Part shown: positions 1,031 to 30,703 of the stretch, in pieces
Position numbering within the stretch: the stretch's first letter is position 1
Layout of the letters: every line of letters starts with the position of its first letter
From: an uncultured Schlesneria sp.
GTDB taxonomy: Bacteria; Planctomycetota; Planctomycetia; Planctomycetales; Planctomycetaceae
Assembly: GCA_903911795.1 (NCBI GenBank)
Contig: CAIWEX010000528.1
Coordinates: forward strand, 1 to 32,092
Length of the DNA: 32,092 nt
Direction of reading: 5' to 3'
The notes under the pieces: generated by a model
Databases searched by the model: none
What the model saw: the letters and a program-made list of their open reading frames with translations, nothing else
What the model was told of the DNA's origin: nothing
Made by a program: the position numbers and the translations under genes

Positions 1031-1265
1031 TCAGAAGACGCAGTAGACGATGATCTGAAACATCAGTGCCAGCCATGCCCAGATCCTCAGGTCTTCGTAC
1101 CATTCACAGCGTCGGCCGGGTGGCGTCACCTGTGATGCCGGAAGTTGCACGACCCACCCCCATCAGCGCCAGCAGCAGTCCAATAAAAAGACATCGGGCG
1201 CCCCACAGGGGAACCTGCAGCAACTGCTCGCGAATGGCGTCACCAATCCAGTGCAGAAACGTCAC
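1031..1265 (-). pseudogene. Small two-helix membrane protein coupled to the symporter, frameshifted
   Basis: I do not recognise a named family. The best start is GTG at 1265-1263, overlapping the symporter stop by four bases (GTGA) with a strong Shine-Dalgarno (CGAGGAGG) upstream, which suggests translational coupling. Frame one gives VTFLHWIGDAIREQLLQVPL and then a hydrophobic stretch, CLFIGLLLALMG. At a run of five G (1157-1161; C on the plus strand) the sense continues one base later as WVVQLPASQVTPPGRR, then a second hydrophobic helix, AWLALMFQIIVYCVF, and stop TGA at 1031-1033. With four G the product would be 77 residues with two membrane helices. As written, frame one continues without similarity to a stop at 1104-1106. 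The gene may be a recent pseudogene, a sequencing error in the homopolymer, or a frameshifted gene. By analogy with small partners of other sodium:solute symporters (inference), it could be an accessory subunit. Confidence 0.65.
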
Positions 1266-2908
1266 GGAAGAGCCTCCTCGGGAGGTTTCCATTCCCAGAT
1301 TGAATAACGACGTTTCTCAGGATCATCCGGGCGAGCGAAGTAGCTGAAGAGCCATGTCAGCAGCACAGTCGCCAGAAATGCCCAGATCGAATAGTAAAGA
1401 TAAGCCTGTGCAATCCGGAACAACGGCCGAACCCCCAGCCAGTCCGCTACGAACGACTGATTGAGCATGAACAGCGTGACCGACGTCAACACGCCACCAA
1501 GATAGCCGATCAATGCCCCTTCTGCCGTATTGCGTGACGACAACATTCCCAGCAGGATCACAGCGAGCGTCGGACCGACGATGAAGGACATCAACGTCTG
1601 GAAAATCGTGTAGATTCCTTCGTTGAATGCCATCAATTGGAACGCGAAGTAGACCGCCCATAGAACGAATCCGATCGTCGTCCAGCGGCCGACTTCCAGC
1701 ATTAAGCCTTCGTCGGCATTCGGGCGATAAAACCGTTTGTAAAAGTCGTTCACGTAGATGGTGGTGGCAGAATTCAGGTACGAATCGACACTCGACATCA
1801 GCGCCGCCAGAAACGCAGCGACAAACACCCCGCGCCACCCTTCACCCAGCATGCTGCCAACCAGCAGCGGCAAAGCCCGGTCTGCATGCTCGTGCGTTAA
1901 CTCCGGAAATTTGACGAGTGCAATCAGTCCCGGAACTGCAACAATGAACGGAATCAGGTTTTTCAGTAAAGCACCGCAGACATATGAGGCTTTCGCTTCG
2001 TATTCAGATTTCGCCCCCAATGATCGCTGGACGATGCACTGATTCCCGATCCAGTAACCGGGACTGACGACCAGTGCCAAACCAAACAGGATCGCTGGCC
2101 AGGGGCCCGGGGAATTGGAATCGATCGGCTGGACCAATGAAAAATGCCCGGATTTGGCATCTTTTGATCGCCGCTGCGGTTTGACAACTTCCGGTTCGTC
2201 TTCTTCGTACGCGCGTTGTCGGGCTTGTTCGTTCTCCCGCAGCTTACGTTCATGGACAGTATCATGGACTTTATCCACAAACGGTTCGAAGCCACCGAGT
2301 TCCACAATTCCCATGACCAGGACCATAAAGCAGCCACCGATCATCACAATCCCTTGCAGCACGTCGGTGTAAACAACGGCTCGCAAGCCCCCTGACCACG
2401 TGTACGCTCCCACCAGAAAGGCTGTCACGAGGATCGAAACAGTCATGTCCCAATTCGCAAGAGTATGCATGAACTTGGCCGAAGCCAGCAGCATCACCCC
2501 CAGATTGCAGGCCATCAACAGCAACCAGCATGCAGCAACCACTGTCCGCAATTGAGGGCTGAAACGCCGTTCCAGATACTCGGGAATTGTCGTCACTCGG
2601 CACCGCCACAGATGCGGTATGAAAACGAACGCCGCGACCAGCATGGCCGGAACGCAGCCAATCCATTCGAAATTCCCCATCACCAGACCGTATCGGAACG
2701 TGTCTCCGCCGACCCCCATCAGATCGGTCCCGCCGATATCGGTCGCGACCAGCGAGATTCCGACGGCCCACCACGGAAGCGAGCGTCCTGCCAGAAAGAA
2801 ATCGGAACCGCTACGAACGTAGCTTCCCACCCAAAGCCCGATCACCATCGTCGCACAGAGGTATGCCACGATGACAAGATAATCGACGGGACCAAGGAAA
2901 TTCGTCAT
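1262..2908 (-). CDS. Sodium:solute symporter family transporter
   Basis: A 548-residue inner-membrane symporter of the SSS family (SGLT/PutP type), expected to couple Na+ entry to uptake of an organic solute; the substrate is unknown. The N-terminus has the family pattern: a first helix (YLVIVAYLCATMVIGLWVG), then SGSDFFLAGRSLPWWAVGIS, and SLVATDIGGTDLMGVGG. Many further hydrophobic helices follow to about residue 535. A long, strongly charged hydrophilic loop lies at about residues 210-255 (runs such as RKLRENEQARQRAYEEDEPE), longer than in PutP-like members. The start ATG at 2908 is the natural N-terminus before the first helix, although the Shine-Dalgarno is weak. Its stop overlaps the GTG start of the small membrane protein downstream, and glutamyl-tRNA synthetase follows that. 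Confidence 0.9.
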   Translation of the reverse strand: MTNFLGPVDYLVIVAYLCATMVIGLWVGSYVRSGSDFFLAGRSLPWWAVGISLVATDIGGTDLMGVGGDTFRYGLVMGNFEWIGCVPAMLVAAFVFIPHLWRCRVTTIPEYLERRFSPQLRTVVAACWLLLMACNLGVMLLASAKFMHTLANWDMTVSILVTAFLVGAYTWSGGLRAVVYTDVLQGIVMIGGCFMVLVMGIVELGGFEPFVDKVHDTVHERKLRENEQARQRAYEEDEPEVVKPQRRSKDAKSGHFSLVQPIDSNSPGPWPAILFGLALVVSPGYWIGNQCIVQRSLGAKSEYEAKASYVCGALLKNLIPFIVAVPGLIALVKFPELTHEHADRALPLLVGSMLGEGWRGVFVAAFLAALMSSVDSYLNSATTIYVNDFYKRFYRPNADEGLMLEVGRWTTIGFVLWAVYFAFQLMAFNEGIYTIFQTLMSFIVGPTLAVILLGMLSSRNTAEGALIGYLGGVLTSVTLFMLNQSFVADWLGVRPLFRIAQAYLYYSIWAFLATVLLTWLFSYFARPDDPEKRRYSIWEWKPPEEALP

Positions 2909-8728: not shown

Positions 8729-10210
8729 ATGCTGATCACCTGTGTGATTCTGTACATGGTCGCAACGATTGCCGTGGGCCTCTACGCATCAAGCCGCGTG
8801 CATAGTGCGAAAGATTTCATGGTTGCCGGGCGGTCACTCCCCTTATACATGAGCTTTGCCTGTGTTTTTGCGACCTGGTTTGGCGCGGAAACCGTCTTGT
8901 CAGTCTCCGCCAAGTTCGCAGACAAAGGATTGAGCCACGTCTCGGGAGATCCGTTTGGTGCCTCGTTCTGCCTGCTGCTTGTCGGATTTTTCTTTGCTCG
9001 GACATTTTATCGCCTGGAACTGCTGACCATTGGTGACTACTACCACTTGCGGTACGGGAAATTTGTAGAAGTCGTCACCTCACTGGGAATTGCCAGTTCG
9101 TACCTTGGTTGGACGAGTGCCCAATTGTCGGCGCTGGGACTGGTGATCAATGTCCTGTTCCCAAAAATTTCGCTGAATGAATCGATCATGATTGGTGCGG
9201 CCATTGTCACCGTCTATACCTTGTTCGGTGGGATGTGGTCAGTGGCGTTGACGGACGTCATTCAGACCGCAGCCATCGTGATTGGTCTGATCATCGTCGC
9301 CGTGTTGATGGGAAATCTTGCTGGCGGATTCGACGTCGTCCTGTCCGAAGCTCACAAGCAGGGAAAACTCAACCTCTTCCCGAAGGCATCTGCTGCGGCG
9401 TGGATGATCTTCATCGGTGAATTCATCACGATGTCGCTGGGATCAATTCCTCAGCAGGATGTGTTCCAGCGAGTCACGAGTGCAAAGGATGAACGAACGG
9501 CCTTCATCGGCACGATTGCCGGCGGCATGTTCTACTTTGCGTTTGCGTTCGTGCCGATGTTTATCGCGTTCTCAGCAACAGTGATCGACCCCAGTTACAT
9601 TGAAGCCTTCGGCGGAGACACACCCCGGGAAGTTCAGAAACTCCTTCCAACACTGGTCTTGGATAAGACACCGATCTGGTGCCAGATTCTGTTCTTCGGA
9701 GCGGTCTTGTCGGCAATTCTTTCGACCGCCAGCGGCACATTACTAGCCCCGGCAAGTATCCTCACCGAAAATGTGCTGCAGCAGTTCACCAAACATTTCA
9801 GTGACCGAACAATGTTGTGGCTCTTGCGAGCCGTTCTCGTCACTGTGGCGATCATTTCGACACTGATTTCAACTAACACTGACAAATCGATGTACGAAAT
9901 GGTCGAAAGCGGATACAGCGTGACGCTGGTTGTCGCGTTCATCCCGCTCGCATGCGGAGTCTATTGGCGCCGGGCAACAACTCAGGGAGCCGTCTTTTCG
10001 ATCCTGTTGGGCCTCCCCGCCTGGATCGGATTCAGTTTTCTGCATGCCGTAGATAAAGAATTGTGGCGTTGTATTCCACCACAACTCGTCGGACTGGCAG
10101 GGTCCGCGATCGGTATGGTGGCTGGATCGCTGATGCCACCCTGGATCAAACACACTCAACCGGACCATGCCGAAGTGATTAACAAACGTCGAGTCTCGAC
10201 AGGACACTAA
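8729..10210 (+). CDS. Sodium:solute symporter family transporter
   Basis: A 493-residue SSS-family membrane transporter, clearly different from the one at 1262-2908. The N-terminus is typical: ITCVILYMVATIAVGLYASS, then SAKDFMVAGRSLPLYMSFAC, and the unwound-helix region FATWFGAETVLSVSAK. Around twelve to thirteen hydrophobic helices run to residue 470, including LFGGMWSVALTDVIQTAAIV, which is characteristic of the family. The start ATG at 8729 follows GTTGAAGG immediately and GTTGGAG slightly farther away. The substrate cannot be predicted from sequence alone. It is separated by 97 bases from the ybeY cluster and by 64 bases from the next gene on the same strand, so it could be transcribed on its own or with the cytochrome gene. 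Confidence 0.9.
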   Translation: MLITCVILYMVATIAVGLYASSRVHSAKDFMVAGRSLPLYMSFACVFATWFGAETVLSVSAKFADKGLSHVSGDPFGASFCLLLVGFFFARTFYRLELLTIGDYYHLRYGKFVEVVTSLGIASSYLGWTSAQLSALGLVINVLFPKISLNESIMIGAAIVTVYTLFGGMWSVALTDVIQTAAIVIGLIIVAVLMGNLAGGFDVVLSEAHKQGKLNLFPKASAAAWMIFIGEFITMSLGSIPQQDVFQRVTSAKDERTAFIGTIAGGMFYFAFAFVPMFIAFSATVIDPSYIEAFGGDTPREVQKLLPTLVLDKTPIWCQILFFGAVLSAILSTASGTLLAPASILTENVLQQFTKHFSDRTMLWLLRAVLVTVAIISTLISTNTDKSMYEMVESGYSVTLVVAFIPLACGVYWRRATTQGAVFSILLGLPAWIGFSFLHAVDKELWRCIPPQLVGLAGSAIGMVAGSLMPPWIKHTQPDHAEVINKRRVSTGH

Positions 10211-22498: not shown

Positions 22499-24019
22499 CT
22501 AACTACAACCCCCGCATCCACCACCACCTCCCCCACATCCGCCGCCACAACCACCTCCACCTCCACCTCCACCTCCACCTCCACCTCCGCCTCCGCCTCC
22601 GCATCCAACTCCACTGCAATCTCCTGATCCACCACTACCCCCGTGGGTCGCTGCCTTCCATGCGGTCTTCAAGTCATCAAACGCAGGTCCGTGCAGGGCG
22701 GTTGCGCCAAACAATGCGGCACTCAGAGCCACATCATGGTGCGACAGATTCGCGGGGCCACCTGACTTGAGATTGCTGTGAAGCGATTTCAATGACTCCA
22801 ATAATCGATCGCCAGACAATGAACGACGAACCGACGTCAACATCGCCAGGGCCGTGATCAATGTCACGACACAGCAGGCAACCAGCAGTTCAACCGCCCG
22901 CATTCGCTCAATCCCGATCATCACTTTCACCGAACCCGTGATGAGCAGCAATACCATCACGAGGAATGGGACCACACGCGCTGAAAACTGACGTTCGGAA
23001 TCAACCACGTAGCCATAAGCTTGCAGGCGTTCGTCAATCGCTTCCGTCTCGTGAGCAAGAACGGCGTGTAATTCAACGAGTGTTTTGTCCGAAGCCTGAA
23101 CCGAGGCATAGATCGCAGTCGCGAACTTGTCGTCTGCGGCAGGAACATTTTCACCTGCCGAAAACCTCACCCGCGCACCGTTCGATGAAATCAGCCACCC
23201 TTTAAATGGCTTTGAAATGAGCTGCTGTGCCTGAAGCATTCGGGCGACAGTAACATTGACGACTGCGGGACGTCCAAATGACAGACAGGCAATTTCTTCT
23301 GCCGTCAACTCTGGGTCTCCGACTGTCGGCACGTCGCGCTGGTACCTGCGGAAGTTCATTGAGCCATTGAGGAAAATGACATAAAGAACCGCATACATAC
23401 CGAGAAATCCGGGACCAGCCCAGTCAAAAGGACCGAGTCCCACGGCCATGATCGGGACAAATGCCAGAGCGAGTTTTCGGCACCCGAATGAACGAGGCCA
23501 CCAGCCTGGCTTGCGAATAATCCAATGATCCCGCGCGTTCACGGTCCGCACTCGCGATTGCGGATCAAATCGTTCAAACGCTGGCGGCCAGATGTCGCCG
23601 GGAGGGGAAGTGCCAAACACCCGATGGTAACTCAACAGTGTCTGGCGATACATCGCCCAGTGCTTTTGAAGCTCTGCGGTTCCTCCGGCAGTCGGGTTGT
23701 GGTGTAACGTGGAACGCAGGGTCTTCTGACACAGATCCTCCCAGTAGGATTTGCTAAAAGTGAGGTGTTGATGCCAGACGGCATCAACGTCCTCAGACGG
23801 ACAGACCGCATGACCGGCCACGGCCGTCAGGAATACAAACCGCAGATATTCCTGTAGTACTCTCTCAGTGAACTCCGCAGTCCAACCCATCTCCGCTGCC
23901 AGGCGAGCAGAAAACGGCTTCTCTGCCGAATTGGGGTTCCATGGGAACTCATTAAGCCTGTGCCAAAGTGCTTGCTGATCACTCGTTAAGGCGGCCAGGA
24001 ACTGTCGATCATTCGACAT
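22499..24019 (-). CDS. TIGR04222-like membrane protein with Gly/Cys-rich C-terminus
   Basis: A 506-residue membrane protein. The N-terminal 160 residues are soluble (helical, with WHQHLTFSKSYWEDLCQKT) and precede hydrophobic helices at about 175-215 (ALAFVPIMAVGLGPF, FLGMYAVLYVIFLNG). A segment like the TIGR04222 core follows (DPELTAEEIACLSFGRPAVV, then VARMLQAQQLI), and two more helices lie near 345-395. The last 45 residues are almost only Gly with scattered Cys, including a run of 17 Gly (22550-22600), and end GGGGCGGCS. I match it to the TIGR04222 family of conserved membrane proteins with glycine-rich tails by pattern memory; function is unknown. The start ATG at 24019 opens a natural N-terminus. 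It is upstream of the copper-like protein on the same strand, 153 bases away, so the two could share a transcript. Confidence 0.75.
   Translation of the reverse strand: MSNDRQFLAALTSDQQALWHRLNEFPWNPNSAEKPFSARLAAEMGWTAEFTERVLQEYLRFVFLTAVAGHAVCPSEDVDAVWHQHLTFSKSYWEDLCQKTLRSTLHHNPTAGGTAELQKHWAMYRQTLLSYHRVFGTSPPGDIWPPAFERFDPQSRVRTVNARDHWIIRKPGWWPRSFGCRKLALAFVPIMAVGLGPFDWAGPGFLGMYAVLYVIFLNGSMNFRRYQRDVPTVGDPELTAEEIACLSFGRPAVVNVTVARMLQAQQLISKPFKGWLISSNGARVRFSAGENVPAADDKFATAIYASVQASDKTLVELHAVLAHETEAIDERLQAYGYVVDSERQFSARVVPFLVMVLLLITGSVKVMIGIERMRAVELLVACCVVTLITALAMLTSVRRSLSGDRLLESLKSLHSNLKSGGPANLSHHDVALSAALFGATALHGPAFDDLKTAWKAATHGGSGGSGDCSGVGCGGGGGGGGGGGGGGGGGCGGGCGGGGGGCGGCS
22550..22600. repeat. In-frame hexamer tandem repeat coding the 17-Gly run
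   Basis: The plus strand shows a near-perfect repeat of a six-base unit (CCTCCA, drifting to CCTCCG at the right end). Read on the minus strand it encodes two glycines per unit. Copy-number change by slippage keeps the frame and would change only the length of the glycine tail. Confidence 0.85.
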
Positions 24020-30581: not shown

Positions 30582-30611
30582 TTGCGTTCGAACGTCAGAA
30601 TCTCGCCTTTG

Positions 30612-30656
30612 TTCGGCGCGGGTCTCCGACCCCGCCGAAACCGACGACCGAAGGTC
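30612..30656. repeat. Imperfect hairpin pair downstream of nucleoside hydrolase
   Basis: TTCGGCGCGGGTC (30612-30624) pairs with GACCCCGCCGAA (30628-30639) apart from one bulged base, giving a long stem with a TCC loop. A second short hairpin, GACC-GAA-GGTC, follows at 30646-30656, and a T-rich stretch (CTTTTTG) begins near 30668. It may act as the terminator of the hydrolase gene. The sequence resembles a dispersed planctomycete repeat from memory; only one copy is seen here. Confidence 0.5.
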
Positions 30657-30703
30657 TCCTCTTCCGTCTTTTTGAACGAGACTTGCCAGCAAAGCAACTG
30701 AAG

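Follow-up and report, generated by a model that had tools for sequence, protein, structure and literature searches.

A small gene directly behind an SGLT-type sodium:solute symporter of a planctomycete probably encodes the detached C-terminal helix (TM13) of that symporter as a two-helix subunit of its own; we put the probability of this reading at about 0.7. With slightly less assurance, we consider it likely that a single ancient fission in Planctomycetota, located at the TM12-TM13 loop, converted the last helix into a two-helix subunit on its own chain, which now occurs in several families and is kept even where it lies far from the symporter. An ancient fission is favoured because the second helix of the small protein (TM2) matches the C-terminal helix of fused symporters best, and because the symporters accompanied by the small gene form one clade within the fused ones.

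Layout of the locus and its frame break

The window, i.e. the whole stretch of DNA analysed here, comprises 32,092 nucleotides from an uncultured Schlesneria sp. and is a complete contig of an 8.39 Mb assembly in 1338 contigs. The features of the locus are as follows, with the basis of each assignment in brackets.

1262..2908, minus strand: SGLT-like sodium:solute symporter, 548 aa (PF00474, TIGR00813, SGLT1 as best PDB relative)
1273..1279, minus strand: Shine-Dalgarno motif GAGGAGG, 7 nt 5' of the GTG (sequence)
1031..1265, minus strand: small two-helix gene, interrupted here by one additional base (intact in 19 relatives)
1157..1161, minus strand: GGGGG run, GGG C in three close relatives (comparison with G011, G012 and G013)
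1162..1265, minus strand: first half of the small gene, amphipathic start and TM1 (profile match 1161-1262; AlphaFold helices of the L057 relative)
1034..1156, minus strand: second half of the small gene in the shifted frame, loop and TM2, the proposed TM13 equivalent (profile match 1034-1162; comparison of TM2 with TM13)

The GTG start of the small gene (1265-1263, minus strand) overlaps the TGA of the symporter (1264-1262) and is preceded by the Shine-Dalgarno motif at 1279-1273, just as an earlier note on this DNA had described; the end coordinate given there, 1292, is that of an upstream ATG in the same frame, and the conserved start lies at 1265. The unshifted frame terminates with a TGA ending at 1104 after 53 codons, and the shifted frame remains open until the TGA at 1033-1031 and encodes the second helix. 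The note had further seen protein-like sequence on either side of the five-G run, with the second helix in the shifted frame only, and this is confirmed by homologues that match the shifted part. It had also expected a two-helix protein of 77 residues once a G is removed, and all 19 relatives from which we built the family profile possess an uninterrupted two-helix protein of 77-84 aa. An AlphaFold model of the small protein of one relative (L057), used for helix limits only, places helices at residues 3-16 and 20-39 (pLDDT 76.5, pTM 0.44).

At the site of the break, the window reads ATGGGGGTGGGT, as opposed to ATGGGCTGGGT at the same place in the three close relatives G011, G012 and G013, and the additional G was seen in the window's genome alone. 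A profile search across the class recovers the small gene of the window as two pieces, 1262-1161 and 1162-1034. Compared with G011, pS and pN are 0.60 and 0.12 in the first half and 0.44 and 0.09 in the second, a pattern repeated with four other relatives (pN 0.10-0.20, pS 0.60-0.74). About 23.6 kb of the window is covered by G011 ORFs of at least 100 aa, antisense ORFs included, and among likely genes the small gene alone is split between two frames; this disregards weak paralogue pieces, at 22-23% identity, as well as a single antisense ORF that spans the break site. As the relatives are intact, pN is far below pS in both halves and no other likely gene in the part compared lies in two frames, we take the break to be recent or an artefact.

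Which of the two applies is more evenly balanced. That the strain has truly lost the gene by a one-base insertion, and thus carries a new pseudogene instead of an assembly error, is possible at somewhat less than even odds. The comparison with G011, with no second two-frame gene in about 23.6 kb, argues that the contig is not error-ridden, and the symporter beside the broken gene is intact; on the other hand, constraint is still visible in both halves, and the assembly is fragmented into 1338 contigs, with the break site only about 1.1 kb from a contig end. A programmed frameshift, which would make the break a working feature and not an error or mutation, might be suspected from the conservation of the second half in the shifted frame. 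We rejected it as improbable in the extreme because the relatives use one frame: all 19 in the profile read through, and the three closest have GGG C and lack the five-G run.

Elsewhere in the window, a second SSS-like symporter is found at 8729-10210, with a local identity to the first of only 22-23%, and an ORF at 22499-24019 encodes a product with a long Gly/Cys-rich C-terminal tail. A short palindromic intergenic repeat at 30610-30673, with the hairpin TTCGGCGCGGG...CCCGCCGAA, resembles a REP element; it has at least 45 matches in the window's genome at E<=0.001, itself included (40 of 215 candidates scored), and accounts for 46 of the 59 matches listed for G011.

Distribution of the small gene and the C-terminus of its symporter

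The symporter is a clear member of the SSS family, scoring 249.7 bits against PF00474 (E 6e-74, cut-off 22.8) and 309.8 bits against TIGR00813 (E 3e-92, cut-off 184); it falls well short of the panF and actP cut-offs. Among solved structures, SGLT1, vSGLT and SGLT2 are its best relatives. Residues 8-536 align to residues 27-558 of SGLT1, a chain of 673 residues that continues for 115 residues beyond the aligned end. The residues E102, W291, K321 and Q457 and the Ser pair, which we take to be part of the sugar and Na2 sites of SGLT1, are matched in the window symporter; N78 and H83, presumably also site residues, are Asp. A sugar-like substrate is plausible. The chain stops 23 residues past its last hydrophobic helix and carries no C-terminal TM13. 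Likewise, all symporters with a small gene within 600 nt (50 rows, including two duplicates) end 10-38 residues past this helix. More remote SGLT-like symporters, with about 27-33% identity to the queries, possess the C-terminal helix, and the small gene is absent within 600 nt of them; in these fused symporters, 'TM13' is assigned by position and not by structure.

Homologues of the 41 aa encoded in the shifted frame are found in 18 of 58 relatives at E<=1e-3, every one directly 3' of a symporter, which is more than chance would give; weaker matches (E 0.026-0.08) in G041 and G022, and at second sites in G019 and in the genome of the window itself, were not counted. Within the class, the family profile has matches at E<=0.01 in 66 of 397 genomes; within the phylum, it has matches at E<=0.001 in 22 of 392. 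A symporter adjoins the small gene in 61 of the 66 matched class genomes, the window's own counted. The small gene does not always follow this symporter: in G210 and G281 the two genes are both present but apart, G270 holds a small-gene relic interrupted by five stops, alongside symporters that are all distant (best E 6e-21), and the weak matches in G160 and G372 are probably due to chance. Furthermore, G147 has one linked copy and a second, truncated orphan copy without symporter. Among the six phylum matches outside the class, those in G624, G674 and G535 follow a symporter, that in G498 sits at the start of a contig, where linkage cannot be judged, and those in G446 and G573 are weak. Long open frames in G304, G624 and G674, at first suspected to be fusions of symporter and small protein, are actually other frames of the symporter gene.

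Several of these loci have neighbours that we identified by eye. The relic in G270 (L126, 1555-1741, minus strand) lies beside a transposase-like ORF, and the second copy in G147 (L119, about 2633-2824) lies downstream of an ORF resembling Gfo/Idh-type oxidoreductases. In G210, the small protein is encoded behind a sulfatase-like ORF, on a different contig from the close symporter (L155/L162, G210:C1 227411-228920), which is itself in two frames. A second small two-helix gene, possibly for a further accessory protein, lies 3' of the TM13-like one in L182 (1696-1947), L183 (422-688) and L025, and 3' of a fused symporter in L028; for the proteins of L183 and L028, Pfam and NCBIfam gave no match above cut-off.

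Start and stop overlap in an ATGA or GTGA pattern in 55 of 62 distinct linked loci, and in the remaining seven, 6 to 181 bases separate the symporter stop from the start of the matched stretch. Across the 397 class genomes, the 59 with a symporter of at least 49% identity are exactly the 59 with a strong small-protein match (E 2e-18 or better), with the genes unlinked in two of them (G210 and G281); since the genomes are related, these are not 59 independent events.

The earlier note had proposed an undescribed accessory subunit of planctomycetes, and the homologues, the linkage in 61 of 66 genomes and the lack of a Pfam or NCBIfam family support this. In scans of 19 members and four divergent members, no family of either database was seen to score above cut-off. 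A literature search, whose coverage excludes most subscription journals, gave no description of the small protein among its best-ranked matches. DUF3810 (PF12725) matches nine of the 19 members weakly (best E 7.4e-5; member 1 is without match) and scores 12.3 bits for one divergent protein, against a gathering cut-off of 28. No match by the name of MAP17 appeared in the Pfam and NCBIfam scans, and the small protein has two predicted membrane helices. The parallel drawn to YhdT and YjcH found no backing in profile tests, as none of the 19 members at E<=1, and none of the four divergent ones, matched the YjcH, YhdT or DUF4212 families of Pfam and NCBIfam; the evidence points to the symporter's own detached last helix, which is more specific than an added partner.

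TM2 of the small protein and TM13 of fused symporters

We compared TM2 with windows sliding over the whole length of fused symporters in HHalign. The E-values given here refer to single comparisons, with more than 100 windows tried each time, and the match spans about 30 mostly hydrophobic residues. Against 18 fused symporters, the C-terminal window ranked first of 136, with E 3e-7 for ten divergent members (some of them N-terminally trimmed beforehand) and 9e-5 for the combined family, and the next separate region reached 1.2e-3 or worse. For the core family alone, an earlier run still placed the C-terminal window first (E 2e-3, probability 13%). With 34 symporters, first and second rank go to the last two windows, which lie two columns apart, and the C-terminal region obtains E 8e-7 with the divergent members, 4e-5 with the combined family and 2e-4 with the core (probability 46%); for the divergent members, the next region follows at 1.6e-3 and the best control window from split symporters at 6e-3. 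The split symporters' own TM12 region, the best of all split controls, is not far behind for the core family (E 1.4e-3). The profile match, which may point to a TM13-like helix on the second chain, is strong for divergent members and modest for the core. TM1 has no counterpart in the symporters among the HHalign windows. An ungapped TM2 matrix was not decisive, with the C-terminal helix on top in two of the 26 symporters scanned, 18 of which end in such a helix. MAFFT alignments mixing symporters and small proteins misaligned and were left out, and an AlphaFold prediction in which the window, read with table 4, supplied one chain of symporter, out-of-frame linker and second half was discarded at a mean pLDDT of 44.

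For 20 further loci, the outcome was written down beforehand from symporter identities alone and then read. The C-terminal helix terminates the symporter in each of the 16 loci predicted to be fused, none of which shows a small gene within 700 nt, and it is missing from all four predicted to be split. The profile finds the small gene in three of the latter, beside the stop in L195, within a few hundred bases in L197, and about half a kilobase downstream in L198, where direct adjacency had been predicted. In the fourth, L196, a two-helix ORF begins 11 nt before the symporter stop; the profile does not match it.

In a tree of 72 symporters, built without TM13, the 48 split ones form one clade (98/94) inside the 18 fused ones, and six with neither feature fall outside both. 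One fission would be the simplest reading of this tree, the root of which is uncertain because of long branches and a distant outgroup (six distant rows). L115, L122, L152, L153 and L155 were dropped before tree building (stops, duplicates, fragment), and L123, L136 and L143 dropped out because they were short or ran off. For five rows, labels were assigned by eye, overriding the automatic rule: L027 and L140 as fused, L141 and L142 as neither, and L154 as split, its small gene being located elsewhere in the genome.

The loop between the helices is richer in Lys and Arg than the N-terminal stretch (3.2 vs 1.7 residues in 59 core members, 5.2 vs 1.3 in ten divergent ones), which suggests that the loop is cytoplasmic and that TM2 runs outward, as TM13 does in SGLT. 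Net charge separates loop and N-terminus in the divergent members (3.0 vs -0.3) but not in the core (0.34 vs 0.36).

Origin of the small protein and comparison with known systems

In the scenario that we favour, an ancestral 14-helix symporter would have been cut once at the TM12-TM13 loop, and the detached piece would have acquired its own start and an additional first helix. The stop/start overlap and the Shine-Dalgarno motif would couple translation, so that both chains are produced together. TM2 would insert from the cytoplasmic side, like TM13, and pack on the symporter beside TM12, thereby restoring a scaffold helix needed for folding or stability; we infer physical binding, its position and an effect on transport. 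In SGLT2, the TM12-TM13 loop is described as flexible, with a GFP fused there leaving the structure nearly unchanged (PMC10803289). Given this flexibility, the loop would be a tolerable split point.

A different origin is conceivable if the small protein were an independent accessory subunit, not derived from TM13, that docks like MAP17 on SGLT2. The likeness of TM2 to TM13 would then reflect the convergence of interface helices, on features such as Trp and Arg at the cytoplasmic end and C-terminal aromatics. The unmatched TM1 and the weak ungapped matrix fit this view, as does the single-helix MAP17 itself, known to sit on TM13 of SGLT2 (PMC10203128, PMC10803289). We nevertheless consider it unlikely, since the last helix is absent from symporters accompanied by the small gene, and the gene from those that have the helix, since the C-terminal region beats all others in HHalign, C-terminus to C-terminus, and since the split clade is nested in the fused one. 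It is far less probable still that the small ORF is functionally unrelated to the symporter and retained by synteny. The copies apart from a symporter (the second one in G147, and those in G210 and G281) could be read this way, but G210 and G281 have retained the symporter elsewhere, the genes co-occur in 59 of 59 genomes, and the small gene has decayed in G270, where a close symporter is absent. A detached TM13 therefore remains our preferred reading.

To our knowledge, the role of TM13 in SGLT-type transporters is not settled. If the preferred reading is true, these proteins represent a naturally split SGLT whose scaffold helix, the one touched by MAP17 in man, is supplied in trans, and TM13, as a gene of its own, could be deleted, swapped or added without touching the transport core. 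They would also illustrate how a membrane protein can be divided by gene fission while translational coupling keeps its parts together. In addition, the analysis points to a small membrane protein family to which our scans assigned no Pfam or NCBIfam model.

Small membrane genes coupled to SSS genes are known from PanF-YhdT, ActP-YjcH and DUF4212. The present system differs from these, as none of the 19 profile members matches theirs at E<=1 and the symporter scores far under the panF and actP cut-offs. With SGLT and vSGLT (SLC5-type SSS, PF00474), it shares the core, which aligns to SGLT1 27-558, and the C-terminal helix, which TM2 matches, likely in the same direction; here, however, this helix resides on a separate chain of 77-84 aa with an additional first helix, and the symporter stops after TM12. 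A further parallel is MAP17 (PDZK1IP1). In SGLT2, TM13 forms part of the immobile scaffold, and MAP17 docks on it as an essential partner thought to aid surface expression or folding (PMC10203128, PMC10803289). Both systems would have a small membrane partner with a presumably structural role on the TM13 side. But MAP17 adds a single helix to an SGLT2 already equipped with TM13, while the planctomycete partner appears to supply TM13 itself.
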